Assembly: GCA_030444405.1 (NCBI GenBank)
Contig: JARFPM010000023.1
Coordinates: 1-56,030, forward strand
Direction of reading: 5' to 3'
Source: Nitrospira sp.
Lineage (GTDB): Bacteria; Nitrospirota; Nitrospiria; Nitrospirales; Nitrospiraceae
DNA: 56,030 nucleotides
Under the pieces are notes generated by a model. That model had not been told where the DNA came from, did not search any database, and saw only the letters and a list, made by a program, of their open reading frames with translations. A program made the position numbers and the translations under genes. How positions within the stretch are numbered: position 1 is the stretch's first letter; every line of letters begins with the position of its first letter. Of this stretch, positions 31,325 through 46,746 are shown piece after piece.

Positions 31325-31351
31325 GGTTGAGCGGATAACCCTAATCTCCGG

Positions 31352-32622
31352 CTAAGTCGGGCTCAGCGCCAAGATTGTGCTTCGTGCAAAGGCCACGAGG
31401 GCCTGCTGGGCGGCAACCATAAGCCGTAACAGCATCCGACGGGCATGCTGCACGACCTTTCCGACCGTGTTGCACACCAGAAACCGGAGCCGCTTCGGCC
31501 GAGCGTCCGACAAATCTCCGGGTAAAGCCAAGCGCTTCAGCGCGCTGAGCAGATTGGAGGTCAGGATGTTGAGGCGGAACCACGCGGCGTTGGCGCCGAA
31601 CTTCCCACTGGGCAGGGCCTCGGCGGCCAATTCATTCTTCAGCACATGATGGACATGCTCGACGGTGCCCGCTTTCTCCCGATGCCAGCGAATGCGTGTC
31701 AGGCCATCCCCCTCTCGGTTCGTCACAATCGCGACATGTTTCACCGTGCGGCCATCCGCAAACAGCTCGCCTTGGCGGCGACGAATCCGTACGGCGAGAT
31801 AGCGGCGGACCCAAGGCCGACCCTTTCGATGATCGCCGTCGTCCGGCACATACGGGACCTCAGCCCACTCGCGAATCACGATCTCGGTGTGCAGCTGCGG
31901 ACTCATATCGGCACTGATGGCATAGCCGATGCCGCGTGCTGGGGCCTCGCACCACGCTAGCACCGCCGGTTCCTACAGGGCGCTGTCGCCGCGGACGAAG
32001 GTCTGCGTGATGCCCGGTGGCAGCCTTGCGACAGCTCGCTCCAGAATCCGCACATTGCCGCACCCAGCCGGGACCTGGCCGTCACGGAATTCATCGTGGA
32101 CAAGCAGGTCCTGCTCAGCCCAGACGGCCACGACCGGTTGATACCCCCGCGTGCCCTCGTCGGTCACGGGCGCGGTGTGTTTGTGGGCTTCCAGGATTGT
32201 CGCATCCACGTCCAGCGTGGCGGTTCGCTGTGGCGCGTGCTGCTGCACGGCAGCCAGGATGCGCCGGTTTGCAGCTCCCGCACCCGCTAAGGGCGCGGAC
32301 TCTTCCGGGATGGCGGCCTTCTCACCCGCACGCCACAATGGAGGATCCTCCACATGACACGTCTCCCGAAAGTCCCGCATCGTCGGGGTGGCTGGCAGCT
32401 CATCGCCCAGTAAGGTGGCCAACGCCGCATCGGCCCGCAAGGTCTGCAGGTCTTGGCAGCGCTCTCCCCCCGCGACCCACAGCGCGATCAGCGTCTCGAC
32501 CAACTGGGCCGCCGTCAAGCCCCGCTGCCGCTGTTCCCGGCATGCGCGGTGAGGAGGGTCGGATCAATCTGGTCATCGATGTCGAACGGCAGTCGGACGT
32601 TCGCAGACGGTGTCTCAGGCAT
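31352..32622 (-). pseudogene. IS1380-type transposase, broken copy 1
   Basis: The minus strand carries most of a DDE transposase of the IS1380 kind: RQRGLTAAQLVETL, CHVEDPPLWRAGEKAAIPEE, TATLDVDATILEAH, GYQPVVAVWAEQDLLVHDE, and the C-terminal KAGTVEHVHHVLKNELA. Three lesions are visible. The first 30 or so residues (ATG at 32622, MPETPSANVRLPF) are in another frame. An in-frame TAG interrupts GDSAL near 31972, where copy 2 has a tyrosine. A segment after SPQLHTEI is missing compared with copy 2. It cannot make a full transposase. The transcription direction is the same as copy 2. Confidence 0.85.
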
Positions 32623-32645
32623 CAGGCTCCGCCTTGGTTGCTCAG

Positions 32646-33596
32646 TCACCCATTGGGTGATTCATCAAGCAATGCGGATGCCATCCGGAGGGCCGCGCCA
32701 CAGGCGGTCAGGCACGATCGTGGGCTGAGCGCTAGGATGTGGCTTCGGGCCAGAGCCACGAGAGCCTGCTGCGCGGCCGTCGTGAGGCGTAACAGTGTGC
32801 ATCGGGCATGCTGGATGACGGTGCCCACGGTGTTGAACACCAGAAACCCCAACCGCTTCGGCCGTGCCTCCGACAATTCTCCGGGTAAGGCCACGCGCTT
32901 CAACGCACTCAGCAGATTGCAGGTCAGTACATTGAGCCGGACCCAGGCGGCGTTGACGCCAAACTTCCCACTCGGGAGGGCCGCGGCCGCCAACTCATTC
33001 TTGAGCACGTGATGCGTGTGTTCCACCGTCCCCGCCTTCTCCCGGTGCCAGCGAATGAGTGTCAGGCCATCCCCCTCTCGGTTCGTCACGATCGCGAAAT
33101 GCTTCACCGTGCTGCAGTCGGCAAACCGCTCCCCTTGGCACGGCCGGATACGGATCGCCAGATAGCGGCGCACACAGGGCCGATCTTTTCGATGGTCGCC
33201 ATCCTCGGGCACATAAGACACCTCGGCCGACTCGGGGATTGCGCCGTGGTCGGCCCGCTCTCGCTGCCAAGCGCTCTCCGGCAGTCGCCCGATCTTCGCC
33301 CGCAACGGCGGAGTCATGTCCGAACTGATGGCGTAGCCGATGCCGTGCTCTGGCTGCTCAAAACAGGCGAGCACCTCCTGTTCATACAACGCACTGTCGC
33401 CTTGGACGAAGATCTGCGTGACCCCCGGTGGCAGGCTCGCGACGGTGCGCTCCAGAAAGCGCACATTGCCACAGCCCGCGGGGACGTTGCCATCCGGGAA
33501 TTCGTCGTGGACGATCAGGTCCGATTCAGCCTAGACCTCGAGGACGGGTTGATAGCCTCGCGGGCCTGCGTACGTCACCGCGGACGTGTGAAATAT
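32646..33596 (-). pseudogene. IS1380-type transposase, broken copy 2
   Basis: This copy resembles copy 1 over its length but is clearly diverged from it. The frame from 33464 to 32646 encodes 272 residues covering the C-terminal half (FVQGDSALYEQEVLACFEQ, KAGTVEHTHHVLKNELAA). Upstream the same frame continues as GPRGYQPVLEV, an in-frame TAG at about 33532 where copy 1 has tryptophan, then AESDLIVHDEF. The match ends near 33596, where the ISL3 relic begins, so the N-terminal third is missing. Confidence 0.85.
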
Positions 33597-33602
33597 CTTG
33601 TT

Positions 33603-34083
33603 GAGAATGGGCCCCGAAGAAGACGGCCCGGATTCGGTTGGCCGTGATGGACATGTGGAGGGCCTTCCGCAACTCGGTGCGCACCCATGCCTCTCAGGCT
33701 CAGATTCTGTTCGATACGCTCCATGTGCTGCGCCATCTGGCCGATGCGATGGGTCAAGTTCCCCGCGCCGAGTACAAGCGGATCGCCGCGAAGGACCGGG
33801 CCTTCATCAAGGGCCAGCGCTACACGCTGCTCTCTCACCGCGCCAATCTCACGCTGGAGGCCCGCCGCTCGCTCCGGAAGCCGCTGCGGGCCAACAAGCG
33901 CCTCGCCACCGCCTATCTCCTCAAGGAGGAGTTCGGTCAACTCTGGTCGTATCGTCGGGCAGGCTGGGCTTCATTGAAGGCCTGAACAACAAGATTCGCG
34001 TGCTTCAACGGCGCGTTTACAGCTATCGGGATGAGGAGTACATGCGGCTCAAGATTCTCACGGCCTTCCTGCCTAAGAAATGA
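33603..34083 (+). pseudogene. ISL3-type transposase remnant, truncated and internally deleted
   Basis: From about 33603 the plus strand reads KKTARIRLAVMDMWRAFRN, then ILFDTLHVLRHLADAMG, RAFIKGQRYTLLSHRANLTL and LLKEEFGQLWSYRRAG, the central-to-late part of an ISL3-family DDE transposase. Near 33965 the frame breaks and continues one frame over as LGFIEGLNNKIRVLQRRVYS to a stop at 34083. By comparison with the family, roughly 40 residues are missing at the break. The N-terminal part is absent at the junction with IS1380 copy 2. Confidence 0.85.
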
Positions 34084-34401
34084 GCAGAATTGACCCACAC
34101 GAATCTGCGTTGAGCCAGATACAAAATATGATTTGCTTCAAAATTGATAAGCATAAAACATAAAGCATTACTTTATATGTACATCCAGGAAATATGAAAA
34201 CTTTCCTTATACATCCAGGAGACCCTTCTTCAAAACGCGCTATTTCGGACGGTTGTCAGTAAAACCATAAAAATCCTCTTCGTTTGAGCCTCCACTAGTC
34301 AAAACCATTTTTCCTATTCGCAAATGGCACCTAACTTGCTCATGCCTCCTAGCCTAGTGCGACCCACAGGTCGCAATGTATTTCCATGGAGGATGCCGAC
34401 A
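34084..34401. other. AT-rich intergenic leader upstream of the BACON gene
   Basis: This stretch has no gene. Its first half is markedly richer in A and T than its neighbours. It holds a pair of direct repeats (34171-34220) and, nearer the gene, a perfect small hairpin, GCGACC-CACA-GGTCGC at 34359-34374, just before the GGAGG Shine-Dalgarno at 34388-34392. I see no confident -35/-10 pair. Confidence 0.6.
34171..34220 (+). repeat. Pair of 20-base direct repeats in the BACON gene leader
   Basis: CTTTATATGTACATCCAGGA (34171-34190) and CTTTCCTTATACATCCAGGA (34201-34220) match at 16 of 20 positions, with the last ten identical, and start exactly 30 bases apart. The spacing of about three helical turns would suit a regulator binding site, but they could also be IS debris. 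Confidence 0.55.
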
Positions 34402-35499
34402 ATGCGCCAGAAGATTAAGCGATTGTTTTTCCTCTCGGCCGGTATGAGCACGCTTCTGTTCGCTTGTGAGCCGGTGATTCCATTGATACAGCCGGCATTA
34501 GCGGCGAGCGGTCTGGAGAAGGATAGCTCCTCTCTCCTCGGGTCTACTTCTCCAACTTCCAAAGCGCTGGCTGCACCGCTGGCTAGTCCGATGCAAACCC
34601 GACCGCCGACAGCTTTCATGCGCAGGCTCATGTCTGAAATGCCGGAACTGAGACAACTTGCTGCGCCGTCCCTGACAATCACTGCCCCCTCGACGACTGT
34701 TGCGCTTAGTCCGTCATCGTTGGTGTTCTCGGGGGTTCAGGGAGGGGCGAATCCGGCGAGCCAGGCCGTGACGGTCAATTCGAACGGCAATTGGACAGCC
34801 AGTAGCAGCGCCACTTGGCTCACTCTCAGTCCATCGTCAGGCAACGGCAGCGGATCCATCGCAGCCAACGCTGCCCTGTCAGCCGCCGCTGTCGGCACGA
34901 ACAACGCTACGATCACCGTGACGAGCGGCGGAGTGGCGAGAACGATTGCCGTCACGCTCACTGTATCAGCCGCCTCCTTGACGGCGTCCCCCAACAGCGT
35001 GACCTACACGGCAACGCAGGGCGCGGCCAACCCTTCCCCTCAGACCATCACCATCAGCTCAAACGGAACGTGGGCGGTAAGTAGTGGTGCCTCCTGGCTA
35101 TCGCTTAGTCCGACATCCGGCTCTCATAATGGAACCATCACAGCAAGCGTGAATACGGCTACCGCGACCCAGGGAACTAAATCAACCGCCATCACTGTGA
35201 CGAGTGGCGGCATTACCAGAACCGTAAATGTCACCTTGACGCTGAACCCTCCATCCAGTTCATCCGTCACGTTGACTTGGAATGCAAATACCGAGAGCGA
35301 TCTAGCGGGATATAGAGTGTATCGAGCAACTTCATCGGGAACCTATGGAGCCCCCATTGCGACGATCCAAGGTAAGACGACCAGCTACATTGCAACAGGA
35401 CTCCAATTAGGCACGACGTATTTCTTTGTCGTGACGGCCTATGACATCGCGGGGAATGAAAGCGCTTATTCAAACGAGGTCAGCAAAAGTATTTTCTGA
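34402..35499 (+). CDS. Secreted protein with two BACON-type repeats and a fibronectin III domain
   Basis: The start is the ATG at 34402, 9 bases after GGAGG. The 365-residue product has a signal peptide (MRQKIKRLFFLSAGMS..., likely cleaved after PALA). Two beta-sandwich repeats of about 88 residues follow, each with a VxGANPxxQxVTxxSNGxW core (SNGNWTASSSATWLTLSPSSG and SNGTWAVSSGASWLSLSPTSG in part), the BACON-domain pattern. The C-terminus is a fibronectin type III domain with WNANTESDLAGYRVYR and TTYFFVVTAYD. Such proteins are extracellular or surface-bound and often bind carbohydrate. It precedes the secretion operon and may be its cargo (inference). Confidence 0.88.
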   Translation: MRQKIKRLFFLSAGMSTLLFACEPVIPLIQPALAASGLEKDSSSLLGSTSPTSKALAAPLASPMQTRPPTAFMRRLMSEMPELRQLAAPSLTITAPSTTVALSPSSLVFSGVQGGANPASQAVTVNSNGNWTASSSATWLTLSPSSGNGSGSIAANAALSAAAVGTNNATITVTSGGVARTIAVTLTVSAASLTASPNSVTYTATQGAANPSPQTITISSNGTWAVSSGASWLSLSPTSGSHNGTITASVNTATATQGTKSTAITVTSGGITRTVNVTLTLNPPSSSSVTLTWNANTESDLAGYRVYRATSSGTYGAPIATIQGKTTSYIATGLQLGTTYFFVVTAYDIAGNESAYSNEVSKSIF

Positions 35500-36044: not shown

Positions 36045-36110
36045 AAAAATTGATGGCTGGCATGGGCAATGCTTCCAGGCCATAGGGAATGTTTGCAGGA
36101 AACAGATATT

Positions 36111-38456
36111 GTGGCTCGTCAGCTGAAGGCCTGTCTTCATAACAGAAGGATAGAAATCATCCAGGTCCTGGGAATCCTCGGGATGTCTGGTTGCGCCCTG
36201 TTGGTGTCTCCTGACGTCAAGCGCGGAGATCAGCATTTGGCTGCGGAACGTTGGGAAGAGGCCATCCTCGCTTACAAACAAGCGTTAAAAGACGATCCTT
36301 TCGATCCTTCTCTACAGGGTAAGTATGCGTTGGCTCGCGAGCGCGCCGCGGCGACGTATGCCGAGCGCGCTCGAACGTTTCTGAAGGAGAAACAGATCGA
36401 TCTTGCCCTTGAAGAATTCAAGCGGGCTTTGGCCATCGAACCCTCCAGCGCCGATTACCAAGCGGGTTTCGTAGAAGCCACTCGCGTGAAAGAATCCCGG
36501 TCTCAGTACCGCGAGGCAGAACGACTGGCTCAGCTGGGACGAACCGATGAGGCGATGAGCAGCTTTCAGCGGGCCGCGGAGCTCGACCCCACGTACCGAG
36601 ACCCGCTCGAAAGCATCAGCCGGCTTACTGAAGAACAACAGGCCCTCACGCGAGGTGATCGGCTGAAACAGCCTGTTACGCTTAAATTCAAGAATGCGGG
36701 CATTAAAGAAGTATTGGAGGGTGTGGCAAAGGTTGGTGGGTTTACGCTGGTTTTCGACAAGGATGTTCGGAACGACCCTATTTCTATTTCGATTCAGGAC
36801 ACGGCTTTGGAGGATGCCCTTCAACTGATTCTCAACAGCAACAGTTTATTTTCGCGTCAGATCTCTCCAGCCGTCCTGATCGTCAGCCCCGACACCAGGC
36901 AGAAGCAAGAGCAGTATCAGGATCTGATGATCCGAACCTTTTACCTTTCGAACGCCAAATCCAAGGACATGTTGTCGCTCCTGAAAAGCATGCTCGATTC
37001 AAAGCACATGCATGCCAATGAACAGTTGAACACGATCGTAATCCGTGATCAGCCTGAAAAAATCCAGATGGCCGAAAAAATCATCCTGGCCAATGACCGC
37101 CAAGAGGCGGAGGTGCTCTTTGACGTTGAAGTGCTGGAGGTCGATCGGACCGTCAATCAGACCTATGGACTGACCTATCCGAAAGAGGTCGCCTACGCCA
37201 TGGTTCCCCCAGGGTTTGCTGGCCTTATTGCCGGGACCGTTGCCCAACAGTTTACCTTGCGCCAGTTGACCAACTTAGGACCGGATAACTATATCTTCAA
37301 GCTCCCGACGAATGTCCAGCTGGATTTCTTCAAACAGATAACGGACGCGAAGACGCTGGCCGCGCCGAAGATCCGGGTCGTGAACAATAAGAAAGCGGAG
37401 ATCAATATCGGCGACAAACAGCCGATCCTCCTGTCTACGACGAACGTCCTGCCCGGTCAAGCCGCGACGGGCGCCGTGCCGACGACATCGACGGTGACCT
37501 CGGTTGAGTTTCGGGATACCGGCGTCAAACTGACGGTGGAACCTTCTATCAGGCTGGGGGGCGAGCTCGGATTGAAAATGAAGATCGAAGTGATTCGGCT
37601 GGGCGAGCGGGTCATTCTGCAGGCTTCTCCGCCCATCACGCAGTTCAAATTCGGCAATCGGTCTGCTGAGACGATGTTGAGCATCAAGGACGGGGAAACC
37701 GTTGTCCTGGGCGGGCTCTTGCAAGAGGAAGATCGGAAAACCAGAGTGACGATCCCGTGGCTCGGCGACCTCCCTTTGATCGGGAATCTCATCAGCTCGT
37801 TCAAGACAGAGCGAGTCACTACGGAAGTGATCTTAACGATCACGCCGCACATTGTGCAGAACATGACCCCTCCGACACTCAGTGCCCAAGCGTTCTGGTC
37901 CGGCACGGAATTTACCTATGCAACCGGGCCGAAGTATTCGATCCCTGCGCGGAAGGCATCCACGTTGTTGGGGACGGGGTACGGAGATCATCCCGTCGCA
38001 GACGGCAGTGCGGCGAAAGGTGCCGGAGAAACGAACCCGGCCCGTTCCTTGGCTCAACTGGCTGTCCCCGATCCAGTGCTGGTCATCCGACCAGATGAAT
38101 CGGCCGTTCAAGCCGGTCGAGAAATCAAGTTGTCGATCGTGGATGGGCGGATCGGCACATCGGACCGCAACATATTTAAGTTCGAATATGACCCGGAGGT
38201 GCTTCAGTTCAAACGGCTCAGTGATGCGGAACTTGTCAGCCCATCGGACCTTCCTCCTGGAGATCAGGGAAAAGCCGTGGGAAGTATCGCGTTCCGGCTG
38301 GCCCGTCCGAACGAGCATGCTCCACGGTCTGCGTACATTGTCTTTGTCGCAAAGGCGCCCGGGGTGTCGCCGGTTCGCGTTGAACTGACTGATTCTGGTA
38401 GTGCCGCTCAGGCATCACCCGGAATAATTGGGACAGGGGTGGTGAGAGTGCGGTGA
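36111..38456 (+). CDS. Lipoprotein secretin with N-terminal TPRs and C-terminal cohesin-like domain
   Basis: The start is taken at GTG 36111 (AGGA upstream); an in-frame ATG at 36069 lacks a Shine-Dalgarno. The 781-residue product has a lipoprotein signal (LGILGMSGC), three TPR units (to about residue 175), a secretin N0/STN domain (VTLKFKNAGIKEVLEGVAKV), an N1-like domain (IRTFYLSNAKSKDMLSLLKS), the secretin beta-barrel domain (LAAPKIRVVNNKKAEI, VVLGGLLQEEDRKTRVTIPW, LPLIGNLISS, VILTITPHIV) and a C-terminal cohesin-like module (about 655-775: PDESAVQAGREIKLSIVDGR, FKFEYDPEVLQF). It should form the outer-membrane channel of a GspD/PilQ-type machine. It heads the operon; its TGA overlaps the next GTG by 4 bases. 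Confidence 0.92.
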   Translation: MARQLKACLHNRRIEIIQVLGILGMSGCALLVSPDVKRGDQHLAAERWEEAILAYKQALKDDPFDPSLQGKYALARERAAATYAERARTFLKEKQIDLALEEFKRALAIEPSSADYQAGFVEATRVKESRSQYREAERLAQLGRTDEAMSSFQRAAELDPTYRDPLESISRLTEEQQALTRGDRLKQPVTLKFKNAGIKEVLEGVAKVGGFTLVFDKDVRNDPISISIQDTALEDALQLILNSNSLFSRQISPAVLIVSPDTRQKQEQYQDLMIRTFYLSNAKSKDMLSLLKSMLDSKHMHANEQLNTIVIRDQPEKIQMAEKIILANDRQEAEVLFDVEVLEVDRTVNQTYGLTYPKEVAYAMVPPGFAGLIAGTVAQQFTLRQLTNLGPDNYIFKLPTNVQLDFFKQITDAKTLAAPKIRVVNNKKAEINIGDKQPILLSTTNVLPGQAATGAVPTTSTVTSVEFRDTGVKLTVEPSIRLGGELGLKMKIEVIRLGERVILQASPPITQFKFGNRSAETMLSIKDGETVVLGGLLQEEDRKTRVTIPWLGDLPLIGNLISSFKTERVTTEVILTITPHIVQNMTPPTLSAQAFWSGTEFTYATGPKYSIPARKASTLLGTGYGDHPVADGSAAKGAGETNPARSLAQLAVPDPVLVIRPDESAVQAGREIKLSIVDGRIGTSDRNIFKFEYDPEVLQFKRLSDAELVSPSDLPPGDQGKAVGSIAFRLARPNEHAPRSAYIVFVAKAPGVSPVRVELTDSGSAAQASPGIIGTGVVRVR

Positions 38457-38959
38457 GGGAGGACGGGCTAACACTCATCGAGATCCTCGTCACCATGACC
38501 ATCATTGTGATCTTGGCCTCGGTCGTCATGCCTCTGAGCAAAGTGTCGACGAAACGCGCCCAAGAGATCGAACTGCGTCAACATCTTCGGACCATTCGTG
38601 GCGCGATCGATGTGTTCAAGCTGGAATGGAATCGTGATGGGGACGTCTTGCTTGGAGCGGTCTGTGTGAAGAATAGGTTGATGTGCCAGGAAGTCACCGG
38701 GCCGTACGGCTATCCGAAGTCTCTCGATGTGCTGTTGGGCGTCAAGCTGACGGGAGAAGAGGCGACGGTTCGAGGCACCACAGTTAGGCGGTATTTGCGG
38801 GTGATGCCGATCGACCCACTCACAGGCAAATCCGATTGGGCGTTGCGTTGTTACAAGGACCGTCCAAAGCCGTCTAGTTGGTGTGGTGAAGATGTCTATG
38901 ATGTGATGACGCAAAGCGAGGAGTCTGCACTCGATGGTACCAAGTACCAGGATTGGTAA
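38453..38959 (+). CDS. Type II secretion/type IV pilus pseudopilin (GspG-like)
   Basis: The product is 168 residues. A very short leader precedes GLTLIEILVTMTIIVILASV, the class III prepilin signature with Gly at -1 and Glu at +5, followed by a single long hydrophobic helix. The globular part has four cysteines, LRVMPIDPLTGKSDWALRCY and SSWCGEDVYDV, a GspG-like ending. GTG start overlaps the secretin stop. It needs a prepilin peptidase, not encoded in this window. Confidence 0.9.
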   Translation: MREDGLTLIEILVTMTIIVILASVVMPLSKVSTKRAQEIELRQHLRTIRGAIDVFKLEWNRDGDVLLGAVCVKNRLMCQEVTGPYGYPKSLDVLLGVKLTGEEATVRGTTVRRYLRVMPIDPLTGKSDWALRCYKDRPKPSSWCGEDVYDVMTQSEESALDGTKYQDW

Positions 38960-39335
38960 GGTGGGTGGATGGAATGCAAAGGGCTTTACACTGATTGAAC
39001 TCATGATCGTCGTGTCCATAGTCGGCATTTTGGCCACCATTGCCTTTCCGTCCTATCAGTCCTCATTGATTAAAGCTAGGGAGACGGTGTTGCGGCAAGA
39101 CCTTTTCACGCTGCGCGAGTTGTTGGACCATCACCGTGCGGACAAGGGGAAGTACCCTCCGTCCTTGGATGGTCTGGTAACGGCAGGATATCTACGGGCC
39201 CTTCCAAAAGACCCCTTTACGAACTCGCCGAGCTCTTGGCAACAGATCATTGAACCGACAGAGGGTGGTATCTTTGATGTGTATTCCGGATCGGACCTGG
39301 TTGGGACTAACGGGACTCCATATAACCAATGGTGA
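38934..39335 (+). CDS. Type II secretion/type IV pilus pseudopilin (GspG-like)
   Basis: The product is 133 residues with the prepilin signature KGFTLIELMIVVSIVGILAT (Gly then Phe, Glu +5) after a leader of about 16 residues. The C-terminal part contains DKGKYPPSLDGLVTAGYLRALPKDPFTN and FDVYSGSDLVGTNGTPYNQW, the GspG major-pseudopilin fold with its calcium-site region. It overlaps the previous gene by 26 bases and the next by 7. It is the best candidate for the main subunit of the pseudopilus. Confidence 0.92.
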   Translation: MVPSTRIGKVGGWNAKGFTLIELMIVVSIVGILATIAFPSYQSSLIKARETVLRQDLFTLRELLDHHRADKGKYPPSLDGLVTAGYLRALPKDPFTNSPSSWQQIIEPTEGGIFDVYSGSDLVGTNGTPYNQW

Positions 39336-40180
39336 ACAGGCGCGCGAGATTGGCTTGGAGTAGATTCTGCGCTGGGCACAACGTGTTTCGAGTGATGGAG
39401 GAATGGGGGGGTACGTCCATCGGAATCCTTCTGCTTGGACTGTCGGCCTGTAGTCCGCTCGAACCCATTATTATGGAGCCGGAGATGTCGGATCTCCAAC
39501 TCACGGTGGATACCCTCAAGACCTCATTGCGAGATGCCCAGCGAACGGTTGCCGAGCTGAGAGCAGAGGTCGACGCACGGCGCCAGGAATTGGCCGATGT
39601 GCAGATCGCCCGGGCGCAGCTCGAAGGGCGTATTCGGGAGGCGGAACGTCGGTTGACTGAAGCTCGCCATGTGATTGATCTCCAGCGGGAAGAGCTGGCT
39701 AGCTCGCGTTCCCAACGGGAACAGGTGGGGCGGTCCAAAGCCGCACTTCAGAATCAACTGAAGCAGGTTCAAAAACAGGTATCGAAAGTAGAGAAACAGG
39801 TGAAGGGAAATGTATCTCCCGCAGCTATGGTTTCTCCAAGAGATGAGCAATTGGAGTTGGCGACTGTCGCCCCTCAGCAGGATGCCCTGTTGGCCGCTGT
39901 GGAGAAGGGCACCAGGGTTATCCCTGGGCCAGCGAGCCAGGTGTCGGGAGCATCTTCGGTCGGCGAAGTACCGGTGGTCTCTCAGTCGGCAACTGTGCCC
40001 CGCCGCTTTCACGTGGTGGTCATGCCTGGGGACACGTTGTGGAGTATGGCACACCGATATCACACGTCTGTCAAACGCCTCATGGTTCTTAACACGCTTC
40101 CTAGTGACCGTATTCAAGTTGGTCAAGCTCTCTGGCTTACTGAGCCCACGACTGAAGAGCTCGAGCACGAACGAATGTAG
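39329..40180 (+). CDS. LysM-domain lipoprotein with coiled coil
   Basis: The product is up to 283 residues. A lipoprotein signal ends in LLLGLSAC (Cys at about 41 from the ATG at 39329; an internal ATG at 39395 would shorten the leader). A long coiled coil (about 50-155, rich in Glu, Gln, Arg) follows, then a flexible linker, and a C-terminal LysM domain (HVVVMPGDTLWSMAHRYHTS, LNTLPSDRIQVGQALWL) that binds peptidoglycan. In context it could anchor the secretin or pseudopilus to the cell wall, a role played in other systems by FimV or TsaP-like proteins. Confidence 0.88.
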   Translation: MVNRRARLAWSRFCAGHNVFRVMEEWGGTSIGILLLGLSACSPLEPIIMEPEMSDLQLTVDTLKTSLRDAQRTVAELRAEVDARRQELADVQIARAQLEGRIREAERRLTEARHVIDLQREELASSRSQREQVGRSKAALQNQLKQVQKQVSKVEKQVKGNVSPAAMVSPRDEQLELATVAPQQDALLAAVEKGTRVIPGPASQVSGASSVGEVPVVSQSATVPRRFHVVVMPGDTLWSMAHRYHTSVKRLMVLNTLPSDRIQVGQALWLTEPTTEELEHERM

Positions 40181-40224: not shown

Positions 40225-41439
40225 ATGGCAGTATTTGCGTATCGAGTCGCACGGCCTGATGGGTCCACAATCCAGGGGCATGTAGAAGGAGAGAATGAAT
40301 CGTTCGTTCGTGCCAGACTAGAGTCACAAGGATTGCTGGTTTTCAATCTTCACCGTCGAGGAATCACATCAGTCAAGACGGAGACGTCGTGGTCATGGGG
40401 CAAGCTTCCGCTGGGGCAGTTCTTGGTCTTCAACCAAGAACTGCTGGTTCTGGTCAAGTCCGGGTTACCCATTTTGCGCATCTGGGATCTTCTCATTGAA
40501 CGAGCCGGCCATGCTGGATTTCAGCTGACACTGCGTGATGTGCGGGAAGACATCCGAGGTGGAGCCTCCGCCTCAGACGCATTAGCTAAACACCCCGTCT
40601 ATTTCCCGGAACTGTATGTCGCCACGGTAAAGGCAGGGGAGCAATCGGGTAATCTTCCAGAGGTACTACAGAGGTACGTTGCGTATCTGAAGCTGATGGT
40701 CGGGCTTCGTCAGAAAGTGAAGAAGGCGATCTCCTATCCCATCGTTCTCATCGTTATCGGCCTGGCCGTGGTCGGTTTTCTATTGACCTATGTCATGCCG
40801 ACTTTCGTATCGGTCTATGGAGAGTCAGCGAAGACCTTGCCATGGGCGACTCAGGTCTTGCTCGATTTTGTCCTGCATGCTGAGTCATGGATAGTGCCCG
40901 CAGTCGTCGTCTTGATCGGCATCATGCTTGGGACGCATGCCTATTATGCCACCTCGGCGGGACAGTTGGCTATCGATCGTCTTGTGCTGAAACTCCCACT
41001 CGTGGGTCAGATTGCAATCAAGCACAATACCGTCCAGCTGATGCGAACACTCGGAACTATTCTTGCCGGAGGAACCCCGCTCGTTGATGCCTTGCAAGGC
41101 GCAAGAGGAGCCGTTTCAAACCGATGGATTTCACAAGAAATGATCGGGGCCGTCAATGAGATTCGCGAGGGGGCGACGCTGGCTGATGCGTTGGATCGTC
41201 CCAGAGTGCTTCCGAGACTCGCGATCGAAATGTTATCGGTAGGGGAGGAAACGGGTTCGCTGGATACGATGTTGCGGGACGTCGCGGAGTTTTATGAGGC
41301 TGACCTCGATACGAGGCTTACGCAGCTCACCACGTGGATAGAGCCGGTTCTGCTGCTCATAATGGGAGTGTTGGTCGGCGGGATCGTCATTGTGATGTAC
41401 CTGCCAGTATTCCAGATGGCGGGGACCGTCGGCGGCTAG
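40225..41439 (+). CDS. gspF: Inner-membrane platform protein, GspF/PilC family
   Basis: The product is 404 residues with two GspF domains (about 70-190 and 270-395). The N-terminus AYRVARPDGSTIQGHVEGEN is typical. Membrane helices are near 170-195 (PIVLIVIGLAVVGFLLTYVM), 215-240 and 375-398. Signature-like repeats FFAELYVATVKAGEQSGNLPEVL (here PELYVATVKAGEQSGNL) and LAIEMLSVGEETGSLDTML occur once per domain. It couples the cytoplasmic ATPase to pilin assembly. Confidence 0.95.
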   Translation: MAVFAYRVARPDGSTIQGHVEGENESFVRARLESQGLLVFNLHRRGITSVKTETSWSWGKLPLGQFLVFNQELLVLVKSGLPILRIWDLLIERAGHAGFQLTLRDVREDIRGGASASDALAKHPVYFPELYVATVKAGEQSGNLPEVLQRYVAYLKLMVGLRQKVKKAISYPIVLIVIGLAVVGFLLTYVMPTFVSVYGESAKTLPWATQVLLDFVLHAESWIVPAVVVLIGIMLGTHAYYATSAGQLAIDRLVLKLPLVGQIAIKHNTVQLMRTLGTILAGGTPLVDALQGARGAVSNRWISQEMIGAVNEIREGATLADALDRPRVLPRLAIEMLSVGEETGSLDTMLRDVAEFYEADLDTRLTQLTTWIEPVLLLIMGVLVGGIVIVMYLPVFQMAGTVGG

Positions 41440-41498: not shown

Positions 41499-43226
41499 AT
41501 GTCACGTAGCCTTACGAGGCCATCTCTGGCCGAGGTCTTGGTCGTCCAAGGAATGCTCACAAAGCACACGGTTGAGGATGTTCTGTGTCGATTGAATGGG
41601 GTGCCTGCCGCCTTAGGGCAAAAGCTGATCGGCGAAGGGCTCCTCTCGGAGGATCAATTGGCTCATGCACTAGCCGTTCAATACGGTCTTCCCTATGATC
41701 CGCTGACGGATTTTCGGATCGATCCGCGATATTACGAGACTATCTCGATCAAGTTGATGCAACGATTTCCCTTTGTGCCGATCACCGAGCGTTCCGGAAC
41801 ACTGACGATCGCCGTCGCCGACCCGCAAAATTTGCTCGGACTCGACGAACTGGAGCTCCTAATCGGAAAGCCGCTGGATCGAGTCGTCAGCTCCAAGAGC
41901 GCAATCCTGGCGGCGCTGGAACGCAGTGAAGGATCGAGTCAAGTGCTTCGTGAGCTGGAAGCGGAGTATCGGTCGATCCTGGTGAAAGAAGATGATCGAG
42001 GAGACGAAATTCTAACTCTCGATCATCCAGGGGAAGAACAAAGTCCTGCCGTGAAGCTGCTGGACACCATCCTGCTGAGTGCGATGCAGCGCCGCGCAAG
42101 TGACATCCACATCGAAGCGGCAGACCGCGCGACAAAGGTCAAACTTCGCGTCGACGGCATCCTGATTCCTGCCATGGAGCCGCTGGATATTCGATTACAT
42201 GCCCCGTTAGTCTCTCGTTTGAAGGTCATGTCGGAGCTTGATATTGCCGAGCGTCGGGTGCCTCAAGACGGAAGTTTCCGTATGAGGCTGGATCGAAAGA
42301 CCGTGGATTTTCGTGTCTCCATTCTGCCCAGCGTCTTCGGCGAGTCGGTCGTGATTCGAATATTGGACCAGGACTCGATTGCGACCGGAGTGTCGGCCTT
42401 GAATCTCGAACGGCTCGGGTTTAACCCGGAAGATCTGAAGCGATTCCGGAAAGCGATTACTCGTCCCTACGGCATGGTGTTGGTGACGGGGCCGACAGGA
42501 AGTGGGAAGACGACGACGCTGTATGCCGCGATATCGGAGATGAACACGCTTGAAGATAAGTTGATTACGATCGAAGATCCCGTTGAATACCAACTTTCGG
42601 GAGTGGTGCAGATTCCCGTCAATGAAAAGAAGGGGGTGACGTTTGCTCGCGGCCTTCGGTCCATACTCCGTCATGATCCGGACAAGATTATGGTCGGCGA
42701 AATTAGAGATCCCGAGACGGCGCAGATCGCGATCCAATCGGCCCTGACCGGCCATCTTGTGTTGACGACAGTGCATGCGAACAATGTGTTCGATGTCATT
42801 GGGCGGTTCGCGTCGATGGGGATCGACGCCTATAATTTTCTGGCCGCTCTCAACTGCGTGTTGGCACAGCGGCTGGTCCGAATTCTCTGTCCGTCATGTC
42901 GGACTCCAGTCAAAGGACAGCGGGCCCTTATTGAGGAATCAGGATTGGACTATGAGCAATACAAGGATACGGTGTTCTACGAAGGAAAAGGATGTCCACA
43001 ATGCCATGGTACCGGGTACCGAGGGAGAAAATGTATTACCGAATTCCTTAATTTGACGGATGAAATCAAAGAAATGATTCATGCCGAGCGACCGCTGTCA
43101 GAAATCCGGTATCGAGCCGTGACCGATGGAATGATTACGCTGCGGCAGTCGGCGCTAAATAAAGTATTGAATGGGGAGACGTCGCTGCGAGAGATCAATC
43201 GTGTGACATTCAGTGAGGAAGGGTAA
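41499..43226 (+). CDS. gspE: Assembly ATPase, GspE/PilB family
   Basis: The product is 575 residues. An N-terminal MshEN/GspE-N domain (about 1-150) is followed by the ATPase domain with Walker A GPTGSGKTT (about 331-339), Asp box, Walker B-region DKIMVGEIRDPETA, and a His box GHLVLTTVHAN. A four-cysteine zinc motif (CPSC near 464, CPQCHGTGYRGR near 498) is the usual GspE/PilB form. MshEN domains can bind cyclic di-GMP, and this one has the right position, but I cannot verify its motif by eye. It powers pseudopilus assembly. Confidence 0.96.
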   Translation: MSRSLTRPSLAEVLVVQGMLTKHTVEDVLCRLNGVPAALGQKLIGEGLLSEDQLAHALAVQYGLPYDPLTDFRIDPRYYETISIKLMQRFPFVPITERSGTLTIAVADPQNLLGLDELELLIGKPLDRVVSSKSAILAALERSEGSSQVLRELEAEYRSILVKEDDRGDEILTLDHPGEEQSPAVKLLDTILLSAMQRRASDIHIEAADRATKVKLRVDGILIPAMEPLDIRLHAPLVSRLKVMSELDIAERRVPQDGSFRMRLDRKTVDFRVSILPSVFGESVVIRILDQDSIATGVSALNLERLGFNPEDLKRFRKAITRPYGMVLVTGPTGSGKTTTLYAAISEMNTLEDKLITIEDPVEYQLSGVVQIPVNEKKGVTFARGLRSILRHDPDKIMVGEIRDPETAQIAIQSALTGHLVLTTVHANNVFDVIGRFASMGIDAYNFLAALNCVLAQRLVRILCPSCRTPVKGQRALIEESGLDYEQYKDTVFYEGKGCPQCHGTGYRGRKCITEFLNLTDEIKEMIHAERPLSEIRYRAVTDGMITLRQSALNKVLNGETSLREINRVTFSEEG

Positions 43227-43230
43227 TGCG

Positions 43231-44226
43231 ATGTGGGAATGGGCCAGTAGCCGACCACTGCGTTGCTTGAAGTTCGGAACCGACTCGATCGCGTGGGCCG
43301 AAACCGAGCGAAATTGGCGCGGACAGCGTCGACATCAGTGTGTCATGTCCCAGCTTTCCGATGGCATGATCAAGCCCTCTCCCACAGAGGAGAATCTATC
43401 CGATCCTTCAGCATTGGCAAATCGTATTCGTGCCCTGACGGGTTCTGCCTCGGATCACCGTGCTGTCAGGGGAGCAATCCTCTCTGATCGTCCTCGACGG
43501 ATTGCAGTGTTGCTGCCTGACACGGCGGTTAGAGCGACAGTTCTGCACCTTGAGCAGCTCCCTGTCAGGCGCGACGAACGCGATGCGCTGATCCGCTGGC
43601 GGCTTGGTCAAGAGCAACTGTTCCCGCTGAGCGGTGCGAAGGTGTTATTCCAAGTATTTCATGATCGATCAGGGGGCAAAGGGCCAGCGCATACTGTACT
43701 GACGGTGGCGGCCCAGGAATCGGTGCTGAAACAGTATGAATCTCTCTGTGAATCTGTCGGGTTGATCCCCCAAGAAGTGGGGATCACGAGCCTACGGATT
43801 TTTGATCTTTGGAGAAGAGCTTTGAGTGGATCTCATTGGCGAAGCCGAGACTGTCTATGGGTCAACTTATTGGATCGAGCCTTGACGACGATGATTTGGC
43901 AACAAGGGCGTTTACTGTTCTACCGATGCAAGCTTCTGGGGGCTGAGGCGGCTGAAGCGCTTACGAAAAGCGATATGCTGAACAAGATTCTTCAGGAATG
44001 CTGCGCGTCGTTGGAGGTCTGTCAACAGCAACATCCCTCAGCGGTCGTTAAGGAAGCCATTATTTGTGCAGACGGAGACCTTTCGGCCTTTCAAGAACTG
44101 ATTGAGGCAGAGCTCCGACTGTCTGTCGAACAACTAACTTGGGAATCGGTCGAAGTTCTCGGTCGGGTGGCCGAAGGGAGCCATCGAGGGATGACATCGT
44201 TGGCTGCGATGGCTGGGGTCCTCTAG
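43231..44226 (+). CDS. PilM/GspL-N-like cytoplasmic assembly protein
   Basis: The start is the ATG at 43231, with GAGGAAGGG about 8 bases upstream, 4 bases after the gspE stop. The 331-residue product is an ASKHA-like protein: RCLKFGTDSIAWAE at the N-terminus, AVLLPDTAVRATVLHLEQLP, and RRDERDALIRWRLGQEQLFP, the pattern of PilM/MshI/GspL cytoplasmic domains. No membrane helix is present, so it should pair with the PilN-like protein next to it. The match is by pattern, not strong identity. Confidence 0.8.
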   Translation: MWEWASSRPLRCLKFGTDSIAWAETERNWRGQRRHQCVMSQLSDGMIKPSPTEENLSDPSALANRIRALTGSASDHRAVRGAILSDRPRRIAVLLPDTAVRATVLHLEQLPVRRDERDALIRWRLGQEQLFPLSGAKVLFQVFHDRSGGKGPAHTVLTVAAQESVLKQYESLCESVGLIPQEVGITSLRIFDLWRRALSGSHWRSRDCLWVNLLDRALTTMIWQQGRLLFYRCKLLGAEAAEALTKSDMLNKILQECCASLEVCQQQHPSAVVKEAIICADGDLSAFQELIEAELRLSVEQLTWESVEVLGRVAEGSHRGMTSLAAMAGVL

Positions 44227-44227
44227 C

Positions 44228-44857
44228 ATGGCGATCATGAGTTCTGCAGTCGCTAGGTTCTACGCACTAGTCAAGTCAATGCCATTACTGCGCGGTGCCG
44301 ATGATCAGTTCCGGATAAACCTGAGCCGCCGTTATCGGCCGGTGGTCGTTCCGCTTCGATTGCTCTTGATCGTCAGCTGCGTCCTGCTTGTGGTAGGGAT
44401 TGGTTCGAACCTCAGGCAAGCGATCCTCACGCATCAAGAATCTTTGATCATCCAAGGAGAACTGGATCGAGTGCGGCAGCAGGACTTGGACTTGATCGCA
44501 GAGGCTCGGCAGGAAGGCATTGATTTGTCTGAAGAGGCGTTGAAGAGACTGCCTTCCGAGGTCGAGTTGGCCAATCGGCTGCTTGAAAAGAGAACATTTT
44601 CCTGGACAAAGTTTCTGACTGAATTGGAACAAGCGATCCCTTCACGCCTTGCGCTCAGCAGTGTTCGTCTTGATCAAGCCGGCACCATGGTTCGACTCAC
44701 GGGAACTGCTACGAGCCTCGAAGATATCACTGTCTTCACCGTCGGACTCCAGGATCACGCGACATTTAAGGACCCGATCTTGGGACAGCATCGTGTTGGG
44801 CCAAACGGGTTGGTGGAATTCGACGTCACATTGCAATACCGTTCAGAAGGAACTTGA
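44228..44857 (+). CDS. PilN-like inner-membrane assembly protein
   Basis: The product is 209 residues: about 40 cytoplasmic residues including FRINLSRRYRP (resembling the INLLPWR segment of PilN), one membrane helix (about 42-62, VVPLRLLLIVSCVLLVVGIG), a coiled coil and a small periplasmic domain (SRLALSSVRLDQAGTMVRLTGTA). This is the topology of PilN and of the C-terminal half of GspL. It starts 1 base after the PilM-like gene and joins PilO-like in a heterodimer. Confidence 0.82.
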   Translation: MAIMSSAVARFYALVKSMPLLRGADDQFRINLSRRYRPVVVPLRLLLIVSCVLLVVGIGSNLRQAILTHQESLIIQGELDRVRQQDLDLIAEARQEGIDLSEEALKRLPSEVELANRLLEKRTFSWTKFLTELEQAIPSRLALSSVRLDQAGTMVRLTGTATSLEDITVFTVGLQDHATFKDPILGQHRVGPNGLVEFDVTLQYRSEGT

Positions 44858-44860
44858 GTG

Positions 44861-45433
44861 ATGAAAGATCGCCTACTCGTTCTCTGGCAGCACCCCTTCG
44901 CACCGTTGCTTCCCTGGGCGGGAGTCGCTCTGAGTCTCCTTCTCATGCTGTTCCTCGTCCAGGCTCTCGGTGTGGCAGCCGTTCAAGCAACCCGAGAGCG
45001 TTTGGAGAACGAATGGGCTGCGACCCGACAGGCGTTGATGTATCACCGTGAAGCAAGAAAGGCGAAAAAAGACTTGAGCCGGGTATGGGCGGCGCTTCCC
45101 GCCGAGCGTGACTTTACGCCGTTAGCGCTGGGGATTTCAGATGAAGCGAAGCGTGATCGAGTCACCTTGTCGACGCTGTCTTACAAGACTGAACCCACTC
45201 TCGTTGCGAATACGAGCAAAGGGTTGTTACAGGGGCCGATGACCGGGCGATACGAGGATCTCCGCCGATTCATCTATGGTCTCGAGACGGCGGAAGAGTT
45301 GCTGTTCATCGAGGATCTTGAGCTGACTCGGTCCGGAGGCACGCAGGACGCACTGTTGACGTTCAATATTAGGATTGCGACATACCTTCGTGGCGACGCC
45401 GTGGAGTCAATCCAGCCGGGACCAGCGCAGTAG
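44861..45433 (+). CDS. PilO/GspM-like inner-membrane assembly protein
   Basis: The product is 190 residues from the ATG at 44861 (a GTG at 44858 is also possible). It has a short cytoplasmic start, one membrane helix (about 17-42, FAPLLPWAGVALSLLLMLFL), a coiled coil and a ferredoxin-like periplasmic domain with MTGRYEDLRRFIYGLETAEELLFIEDLEL, the most conserved PilO-like segment. It follows the PilN-like gene without a gap. Confidence 0.82.
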   Translation: MKDRLLVLWQHPFAPLLPWAGVALSLLLMLFLVQALGVAAVQATRERLENEWAATRQALMYHREARKAKKDLSRVWAALPAERDFTPLALGISDEAKRDRVTLSTLSYKTEPTLVANTSKGLLQGPMTGRYEDLRRFIYGLETAEELLFIEDLELTRSGGTQDALLTFNIRIATYLRGDAVESIQPGPAQ

Positions 45434-45435
45434 CC

Positions 45436-46032
45436 ATGGATGCGAAAAAGAAGACGATTCTTGCCGCCTCGCTTATCTTTCTGTGGGCAGGGCTGGCTGT
45501 GTGGCAATGGCAGCTGCTGCAGGAGCCTGTTCGTGTTCCGCTCACGAATGTCACTGGTCACGCGTCCGTGGGGCGATATGCGGAGAAGGGGAGAACAGGC
45601 TTGCACGTAAACCTCGATTTGCTTTCATCCACGGGTCTTCAACGCCAGGCGACCTTCACAATGCCTCGAAACATTTTTACCCTGCCCCGTCCCGATGGGA
45701 CGTTCGCAGCCGGGAATGCCCCATCTTCCGCGAACCAGCCTTCGGATTCAGCCGAGACCTTGAAGCAACAAGAGAATGCGTTGGAAATAGAGCCGTATCG
45801 ATACCTGGGGTTTCTTCGCGTGGGCGAGGAGCAGCGGAAAAATGGGGATATTGCGATACTCAGAAAAGACGATGAGGTGCTGATGCTCAAGGTTGGTGAT
45901 CATGTCGACGACCATCTGATTCTGAAGGCGATCAATTCTGAAAGCGTGACCATCCGAAACACCGGTACCCATACGGATCAAACGGTGCCGTTGTCGGAAG
46001 AATCGTCGGAAGAACCATCGGGTCAGGAGTGA
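45436..46032 (+). CDS. PilP/GspC-like periplasmic protein
   Basis: The product is 198 residues with an N-terminal membrane anchor (7-26, TILAASLIFLWAGLAVWQW), a linker, and a small beta domain (about 125-180: YRYLGFLRVGEEQRKNGDIA, VLMLKVGDHVDDHLILKAI, VTIRN) with the HR/PilP-like fold that links the inner-membrane subcomplex to the secretin N0 domain. It ends in an acidic tail. It starts 2 bases after the PilO-like stop. Confidence 0.8.
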   Translation: MDAKKKTILAASLIFLWAGLAVWQWQLLQEPVRVPLTNVTGHASVGRYAEKGRTGLHVNLDLLSSTGLQRQATFTMPRNIFTLPRPDGTFAAGNAPSSANQPSDSAETLKQQENALEIEPYRYLGFLRVGEEQRKNGDIAILRKDDEVLMLKVGDHVDDHLILKAINSESVTIRNTGTHTDQTVPLSEESSEEPSGQE

Positions 46033-46038
46033 TGGATA

Positions 46039-46746
46039 ATGAGGAGCCTCTTAGCGCAGCGGAGGCGGCAAGAAACAGGGTTCTCGTATCTCATGGTGAT
46101 GATTGCCATCACTCTTATGGGGCTTGCTATGACGGTGGCTGCTCGGCAGTGGAAGACGATGGTGCAACGCGAGCTCGAAGCCGATTTGCTGGCCAAGGGG
46201 ATAGAAATTCAAGCGGCCCTGGCACTCTACTCGGCCAGCGCAAAGGCTGGAAGGGTTGTACCTGGTGAGGTCTACCCGCAAACGCTCGCCGAACTCACGA
46301 GGCCGCCCAAGCCCTTTCTCAGGAAGGTCTATCTCGATCCGGTGGGGCGCGGTGAGTGGGAATTGCTGCGAGCGCCCACGGGAGGCATCATGGGAGTCCG
46401 AAGCAAGAGCAGGCACAAGCCCATCAAGCAAGGTAATTTCCCGCTCGCAGTGCGCCATTTTGAAGGAAAGCCGACTCACTACGATTGGGTATTCCAATAT
46501 CCGAATCCGTCCGTGGTTGCGGCAGCGGGGCCAGTCACCAGGCCGTCTATGGTTCCGGAACAGCCGGCCATACTTGACCAGCCGATAGTTCCAAGGGAAC
46601 CGGTGCTTCGAGGCCAATCGACGGCTCCCGAGTCCATTCCTGAAGATGATGCGATAGATTCAGCTGATTCATCTTCGTCAATGAATCCGGCCTTGCCGCC
46701 AGAATCTCCTAGGGAACCCGTCATTCCATCGGAAGCGATGCAATAG
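46039..46746 (+). CDS. Atypical pseudopilin with proline-rich tail
   Basis: The product is 235 residues. A basic leader ends in ETGFSYLMVMIAITLMGLAM, a prepilin-like cleavage site followed by a hydrophobic helix, but position +5 is not glutamate. LYSASAKAGRVVPGEVYPQT and RKVYLDPVGRGEWELL resemble a GspG-like globular domain with a Pro-rich loop. The C-terminal 75 residues are Pro/Glu/Ser-rich (PEQPAILDQPIVPREPVLRG). Minor pseudopilins lacking Glu5 occur at the tip of T2SS pseudopili. It is the last gene of the operon. Confidence 0.82.
   Translation: MRSLLAQRRRQETGFSYLMVMIAITLMGLAMTVAARQWKTMVQRELEADLLAKGIEIQAALALYSASAKAGRVVPGEVYPQTLAELTRPPKPFLRKVYLDPVGRGEWELLRAPTGGIMGVRSKSRHKPIKQGNFPLAVRHFEGKPTHYDWVFQYPNPSVVAAAGPVTRPSMVPEQPAILDQPIVPREPVLRGQSTAPESIPEDDAIDSADSSSSMNPALPPESPREPVIPSEAMQ

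Follow-up and report, generated by a model that had tools for sequence, protein, structure and literature searches.

The secretin gene of the Nitrospira sp. contig studied here raises the question of what a channel protein does with a lipobox and TPRs at one end and a cohesin-like module at the other, and which partner the latter would bind. The window, i.e. the whole stretch of DNA that was analysed, is 56,030 nucleotides long. The gene lies in a reading frame (36069-38456, plus strand) that is open throughout and codes for 795 residues from the first ATG. The GTG at position 36111 (residue 15 in ATG numbering) was preferred over this ATG because three relatives of the genus (L003-L005) display an in-frame TAG just upstream of the GTG, and because a Shine-Dalgarno motif, AGGAAA, precedes the GTG by about 10 nt in the window and is found before it in most of the close relatives shown. 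The ATG start at 36069 was therefore dropped. The GTG is also the start that had been chosen in a first-pass annotation of the locus, and the signal peptide is kept from it. Residue numbers of domains are given in ATG numbering.

Starting from the GTG, the protein begins with MARQLKACLHNRRIEIIQVLGILGMSGC, a basic and hydrophobic signal peptide with a lipobox at its end. The lipobox (MSGC) corresponds to residues 39-42, its cysteine being residue 42 in ATG numbering and 28 from the GTG. This cysteine forms an invariant column of the homologue alignment and is shared by all 29 homologues extending into the region. A PROSITE-type lipobox pattern fitted 74 of 79 named loci; of the five others, four have the cysteine but depart from the pattern, and the fifth is a truncated ORF. 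None of the pattern-matching loci has Asp at position +2. According to the Lol rule of E. coli, sorting to the outer membrane is therefore expected. The pattern also fits the LGMSGC site that the first-pass annotation had pointed out for lipidation, so that a type II signal peptide with a lipobox cysteine, as in self-piloting (lipoprotein) secretins, is predicted and the protein is probably a lipoprotein. Secretins which are lipoproteins themselves are an already described class and do without pilotins (PMC4471445). The earlier proposal that this secretin is its own lipoprotein and needs no separate pilotin is thereby supported, as far as a lipobox pattern can indicate lipidation.

Table 1. 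Features of the secretin gene and of the operon that follows it (positions in the window; residues in ATG numbering)
Feature	Position	Strand	Evidence
Lipoprotein signal peptide, GTG start (MARQLKACLHNRRIEIIQVLGILGMSG)	36111..36191	+	basic n-region, hydrophobic core, AGGAAA ~10 nt upstream
Lipobox MSGC with predicted lipidated Cys	36183..36194	+	PROSITE-type pattern; Cys conservation
TPR region, ~3-4 repeats	36222..36602	+	Pfam TPR_2 1.9e-14, TPR_11 4.8e-13; residues ~52-178
N0/STN-like secretin N domain	36666..36893	+	Pfam STN and GspD_N0, weak in window; match at residues 205-260
N1 / Secretin_N domain	36933..37109	+	PF03958 7.5e-10; residues 289-347
Secretin barrel domain	37332..37859	+	PF00263 E 7.9e-35; residues 422-597
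Post-barrel tail with FWSGTE motif (37893-37910)	37860..37943	+	conservation; short helix in model
Variable, disordered linker	37944..38078	+	pLDDT <50; ~19-41% identity
C-terminal cohesin-fold beta-sandwich	38079..38453	+	family Pfam matches, PDB profile match, Foldseek, VIA-align
Pseudopilin 1	38453..38959	+	N_methyl, GspG-like N-terminus; conserved beside secretin
Pseudopilin 2 (GspG-like)	38934..39335	+	N_methyl 9e-9, T2SSG
Coiled-coil LysM protein, likely lipobox, candidate peptidoglycan tether	39329..40180	+	LysM 2.2e-12; conserved in operon
GspF/PilC platform protein	40225..41439	+	PF00482 1.7e-56
GspE/PilB assembly ATPase with MshEN domain	41499..43226	+	PF00437 1.1e-130, PF05157 1.5e-16
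PilM/GspL-like	43213..44226	+	TIGR01175 1.6e-5, below its cut-off
PilN-like	44228..44857	+	PF05137 7.7e-7
PilO-like	44858..45433	+	PF04350 8e-6
GspC/PilP-like periplasmic protein	45436..46032	+	weak PF11356 0.027; conserved position
Conserved pilin-like protein, operon end	46039..46746	+	no Pfam match; conserved position

The domain order lipobox, TPRs, N0/N1 and secretin barrel, as read in the first pass, agreed with the Pfam matches and with the lipobox pattern (Table 1). The TPR region was modelled as all-helical with pLDDT values mostly between 80 and 95, and the STN match was recovered in 18 of 20 family members. The PF00263 barrel together with the N-terminal secretin domains places the protein in the Secretin superfamily. 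Secretin and N1 domains are shared with GspD (T2SS), PilQ (T4aP) and MshL (MSHA), whereas the Nitrospira protein adds the TPR and cohesin-fold modules and has no predicted S-domain. Scores far below the cut-offs of TIGR02517 (GspD, 154 vs 351 bits), TIGR02515 (PilQ, 129 vs 284) and TIGR02519 (MshL, 92.5 vs 250) put it outside these named subfamilies, and it is thus described as T2SS/T4P-like and not as GspD. In the full-length model (pTM 0.29, a low value that is expected for a single subunit of a ring), about seven helices make up the TPRs; they are followed by the secretin strands, a short helix at FWSGTE, a disordered segment and the sandwich at the C-terminus. No S-domain was predicted after the barrel in this model, the short helix at FWSGTE being found instead. 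Within the tail, WSGT is invariant in 20 sequences and the whole FWSGTE motif also occurs in a Betaproteobacterial homologue. The linker between the barrel and the C-terminal module has a length of about 45-60 residues. Three other secretins were identified in the same genome on contigs C129, C169 and C49; two of them could be read out (ORFs of 488 and 529 aa); they stop a short way past the barrel and lack a cohesin-like module.

Identification of the C-terminal module needed the family, since neither the full protein of the window nor its own C-terminus produced a Cohesin match in Pfam or NCBIfam. PF00963 (Cohesin) was matched by 17 of 20 homologous C-termini at E<=1, with a best E-value of 1.8e-11, and its curated cut-off was passed by secretin orthologues in ten genomes. 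A family profile run against PDB retrieved cellulosomal cohesins (best 4ums, 5.2e-6), and a phmmer search of PDB with one distant homologue gave no cohesin match. The module was modelled over 135 residues with middling confidence (pLDDT 75, pTM 0.70) as ten beta strands, in agreement with the jelly-roll beta-sandwich of Cohesin (PF00963). Foldseek returned cohesins as best matches (2vn6 and 3ul4, E 6e-6 to 1e-5), and VIA-align superimposed the module on the cohesin-like module 2jh2 of C. perfringens with a Z of 10.9 over 116 residues at 3.4 A. As unrelated Ig-like sandwiches come next with a Z of ~9, the fold alone would not settle the identity of the module; the sequence profile does. Cellulosomal and Clostridium perfringens cohesins (2jh2, 2w1n, 2vo8, 1aoh, 4ums) share with the module the fold and a distant sequence similarity (11-22% identity in structural alignments), but they bind dockerins or lie in glycosidases, whereas no dockerin was found in the genome studied here.

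From profile and model, the module is accordingly predicted to be a cohesin fold and not a secretin S-domain, and the cohesin-like C-terminus suspected in the first pass was confirmed at the level of the family, including by the structure prediction that had been suggested as a check. The possibility of an ordinary S-domain mistaken for a cohesin draws on the place of the module, C-terminal to the barrel, where S-domains usually stand. S-domains are short helical tails (PMC6532946), however, while the model shows ten strands and none of the S-domain helices, and the cohesin matches come from both sequence and fold. This possibility is considered extremely slight.

A true cohesin fold and profile would suit the idea, also taken from the first pass, that the channel holds dockerin-borne cargo or a surface layer, and dockerins do occur in some Nitrospirota genomes. 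The search for dockerin-type partners that had been proposed turned out against it: in the organism's own genome (99.6% complete) no dockerin was found over the Pfam cut-off of 22.9 bits or at E<=0.1, the best candidate being a partial match of 13.2 bits. Eight other genomes sampled from the genus and family did not give any dockerin at E<=0.1 either. Across 61 genomes, ten carry a secretin-borne cohesin over the Pfam cut-off, and an above-cut-off dockerin is present in only one of these (G015), where it adjoins a different cohesin on another contig than the secretin. With no credible dockerin in the same organism and almost no co-occurrence across the phylum, the reading is already nearly refuted for canonical dockerins, and binding of dockerin-bearing cargo or surface-layer proteins in general is judged quite improbable. 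In another Nitrospirota genome (G017, C14, 63642-65590; L116, L120), a cohesin match over the cut-off lies away from any secretin, with dockerin-like matches below the cut-off both inside the same 623-aa frame and beside it.

The secretin gene heads a conserved operon coding for two pseudopilins, a LysM lipoprotein, F, E, M, N and O proteins, a C-like and a pilin-like protein, with proA often next. Prepilin peptidases are present in the genome. The gene just upstream of the secretin gene (34324-35499) codes for a secreted protein that combines a signal peptide with BACON-type repeats and a fibronectin III domain. This protein is a possible substrate; a role as fixed partner is not supported, for its gene is not consistently located upstream in relatives. 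Also upstream (31341-33940) are overlapping pieces of transposase-like proteins that resemble one another and have the appearance of insertion-sequence copies in decay.

The domain arrangement is found again across Nitrospirota as well as in Betaproteobacteria. The C-terminal module was kept in 79 of 80 Nitrospirota loci from named genomes, the exception (L109) being cut by the end of its contig. In the genus sample, the barrel (85% identity to the window) and the TPRs (79%) are better conserved than the linker (41%) and the cohesin-like part (49%), and the barrel is 85% identical within both the genus and the family samples. Module and linker are diverging far more quickly than the barrel, which would suit a domain that faces a partner; the fast divergence of the module may also reflect mere relaxed constraint. 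Nitrospira-group secretins of the same kind but only ~43-45% identical to the query family were observed (L101, L102, L103, L110), and three genomes (G094, G112, G127) harbour two secretin copies each, indicating that in some genomes the system exists twice, the second copy having diverged.

The anatomy, the homology to cohesins, the operon with its conservation and the absence of canonical dockerins are best accounted for if the gene product serves a type IV filament/T2SS-like machine as its outer-membrane secretin, pilots itself and carries a cohesin-fold docking domain in the periplasm for a ligand other than dockerin. We consider this explanation probable. It supposes that the protein is lipidated and sorted by Lol, that its TPRs play a pilotin-like role, and that the module finds its partner in the periplasm. 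Solved T2SS secretins contact the membrane through their top rim only, and periplasmic, inner-leaflet pilotins bind to their post-barrel S-domain (PMC6532946). Since the module stands behind the post-barrel tail, known secretin topology suggests that it is located in the periplasm at the outer wall of the barrel, neither inside the lumen nor at the outer mouth. The earlier assumption of a C-terminal domain facing outward or into the channel mouth disagrees with this topology (PMC6532946) and is not supported.

Regarding assembly, the lipid anchor and the TPRs would form a built-in pilotin, in effect fused to the channel, with the TPRs behind the anchor occupying the place that separate TPR lipoprotein pilotins (PilF, TadD) have in other systems. 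The conserved FWSGTE tail would stand in for the usual S-domain. The pilotin of the Tad system, TadD, is a TPR lipoprotein that folds like PilF and binds the final residues of the secretin RcpA in its groove (PMC10499894). PilF and TadD, acting with PilQ and RcpA, resemble the front of the Nitrospira secretin in being lipoproteins with TPRs that aid secretin assembly (PMC10499894), but they are separate polypeptides with five or more repeats, whereas three to four repeats are fused here to the secretin and lack a specific sequence match. Indeed, the secretin had no match to TIGR02521 (TPR lipoprotein pilotin) at E<=0.01 in the NCBIfam scan, and no pilotin, neither PilF nor TadD nor another, was among the PDB matches of the TPR region, the best of which were designed and eukaryotic TPRs. 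The similarity of the TPRs is generic and not specific for pilotins, and many other TPR proteins of the same genome could act as a separate pilotin. The link between TPRs and pilotins is consequently proposed by arrangement and not by sequence.

At the other end, the disordered linker would tether the cohesin-fold sandwich, so that docking modules would encircle the barrel in the periplasm as a ring. Each module would grip a fast-changing partner, which might be a substrate, the LysM lipoprotein of the operon or another envelope protein, and most likely not a dockerin. The complete scheme, in which the TPRs act as a pilotin in cis whose groove grips FWSGTE, either within one subunit or on its neighbour, as in TadD-RcpA, and in which the cohesin-fold collar docks substrates or envelope proteins independently of dockerins, is put forward as a tentative one. 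Alternatively, the sandwich could be a structural brace on the barrel wall or on ring neighbours, which stabilises the multimer in the S-domain's stead and has no partner. The lack of a predicted conventional S-domain and the retention of the module in nearly all loci despite sequence drift speak for such a brace; the disordered and poorly conserved linker fits a module on a tether more readily than one that is packed, and the brace is regarded as rather unlikely.

Lipoprotein secretins are also known from other type IV filament systems, e.g. HxcQ and BfpB, which are not known to have TPRs or a cohesin-fold C-terminus. GSU1778, a Geobacter T2SS secretin annotated as a lipoprotein, was considered as a possible close relative. 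With the class of lipoprotein secretins (PMC4471445), the Nitrospira protein has in common an N-terminal lipid anchor on the secretin itself, by which a separate pilotin is unneeded. These secretins are already known, as is the RefSeq annotation of relatives as 'cohesin domain-containing protein', the name given to the Betaproteobacterial homologues. A paper on a cohesin-bearing secretin or on the whole combination was not found in the literature searched, which covered few subscription papers.

The Betaproteobacterial secretins WP_070257939.1 (Janthinobacterium lividum) and WP_301260250.1 (Eleftheria terrae) show the same order of lipobox, TPR, STN/N1, secretin, tail and Cohesin, the tail motif being FWSGTE in the former and FESGTE in the latter. 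Their C-termini pass the Pfam Cohesin cut-off (39.4 and 38.0 vs 24.1 bits), whereas that of the window does not. The J. lividum protein and that of a close Nitrospira relative are ~34% identical over a stretch that extends through FWSGTE. A tblastn search of plasmids with the isolated C-terminus gave no match, and a full-length distant homologue was needed as query. The Betaproteobacterial genes are located on plasmids in operons with pilins, F and E, and with small proteins upstream or downstream, in a gene order somewhat different from that of Nitrospira.

In Nitrospira, which are important nitrifiers, and in some Betaproteobacteria, a conserved channel thus seems to have absorbed a pilotin-like part and a docking domain in one chain. 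If the module docks substrates, this would be a non-cellulosomal use of a cohesin at a secretion pore and would offer a handle on the exports of little-studied machines. In that case, the Gene Ontology label that RefSeq attaches to the homologues from the Cohesin match (polysaccharide catabolism) is probably misleading. A candidate substrate is encoded downstream of the cohesin-secretin operon of Janthinobacterium (L140, from 21284 to its end), namely a very large protein with FG-GAP repeats.
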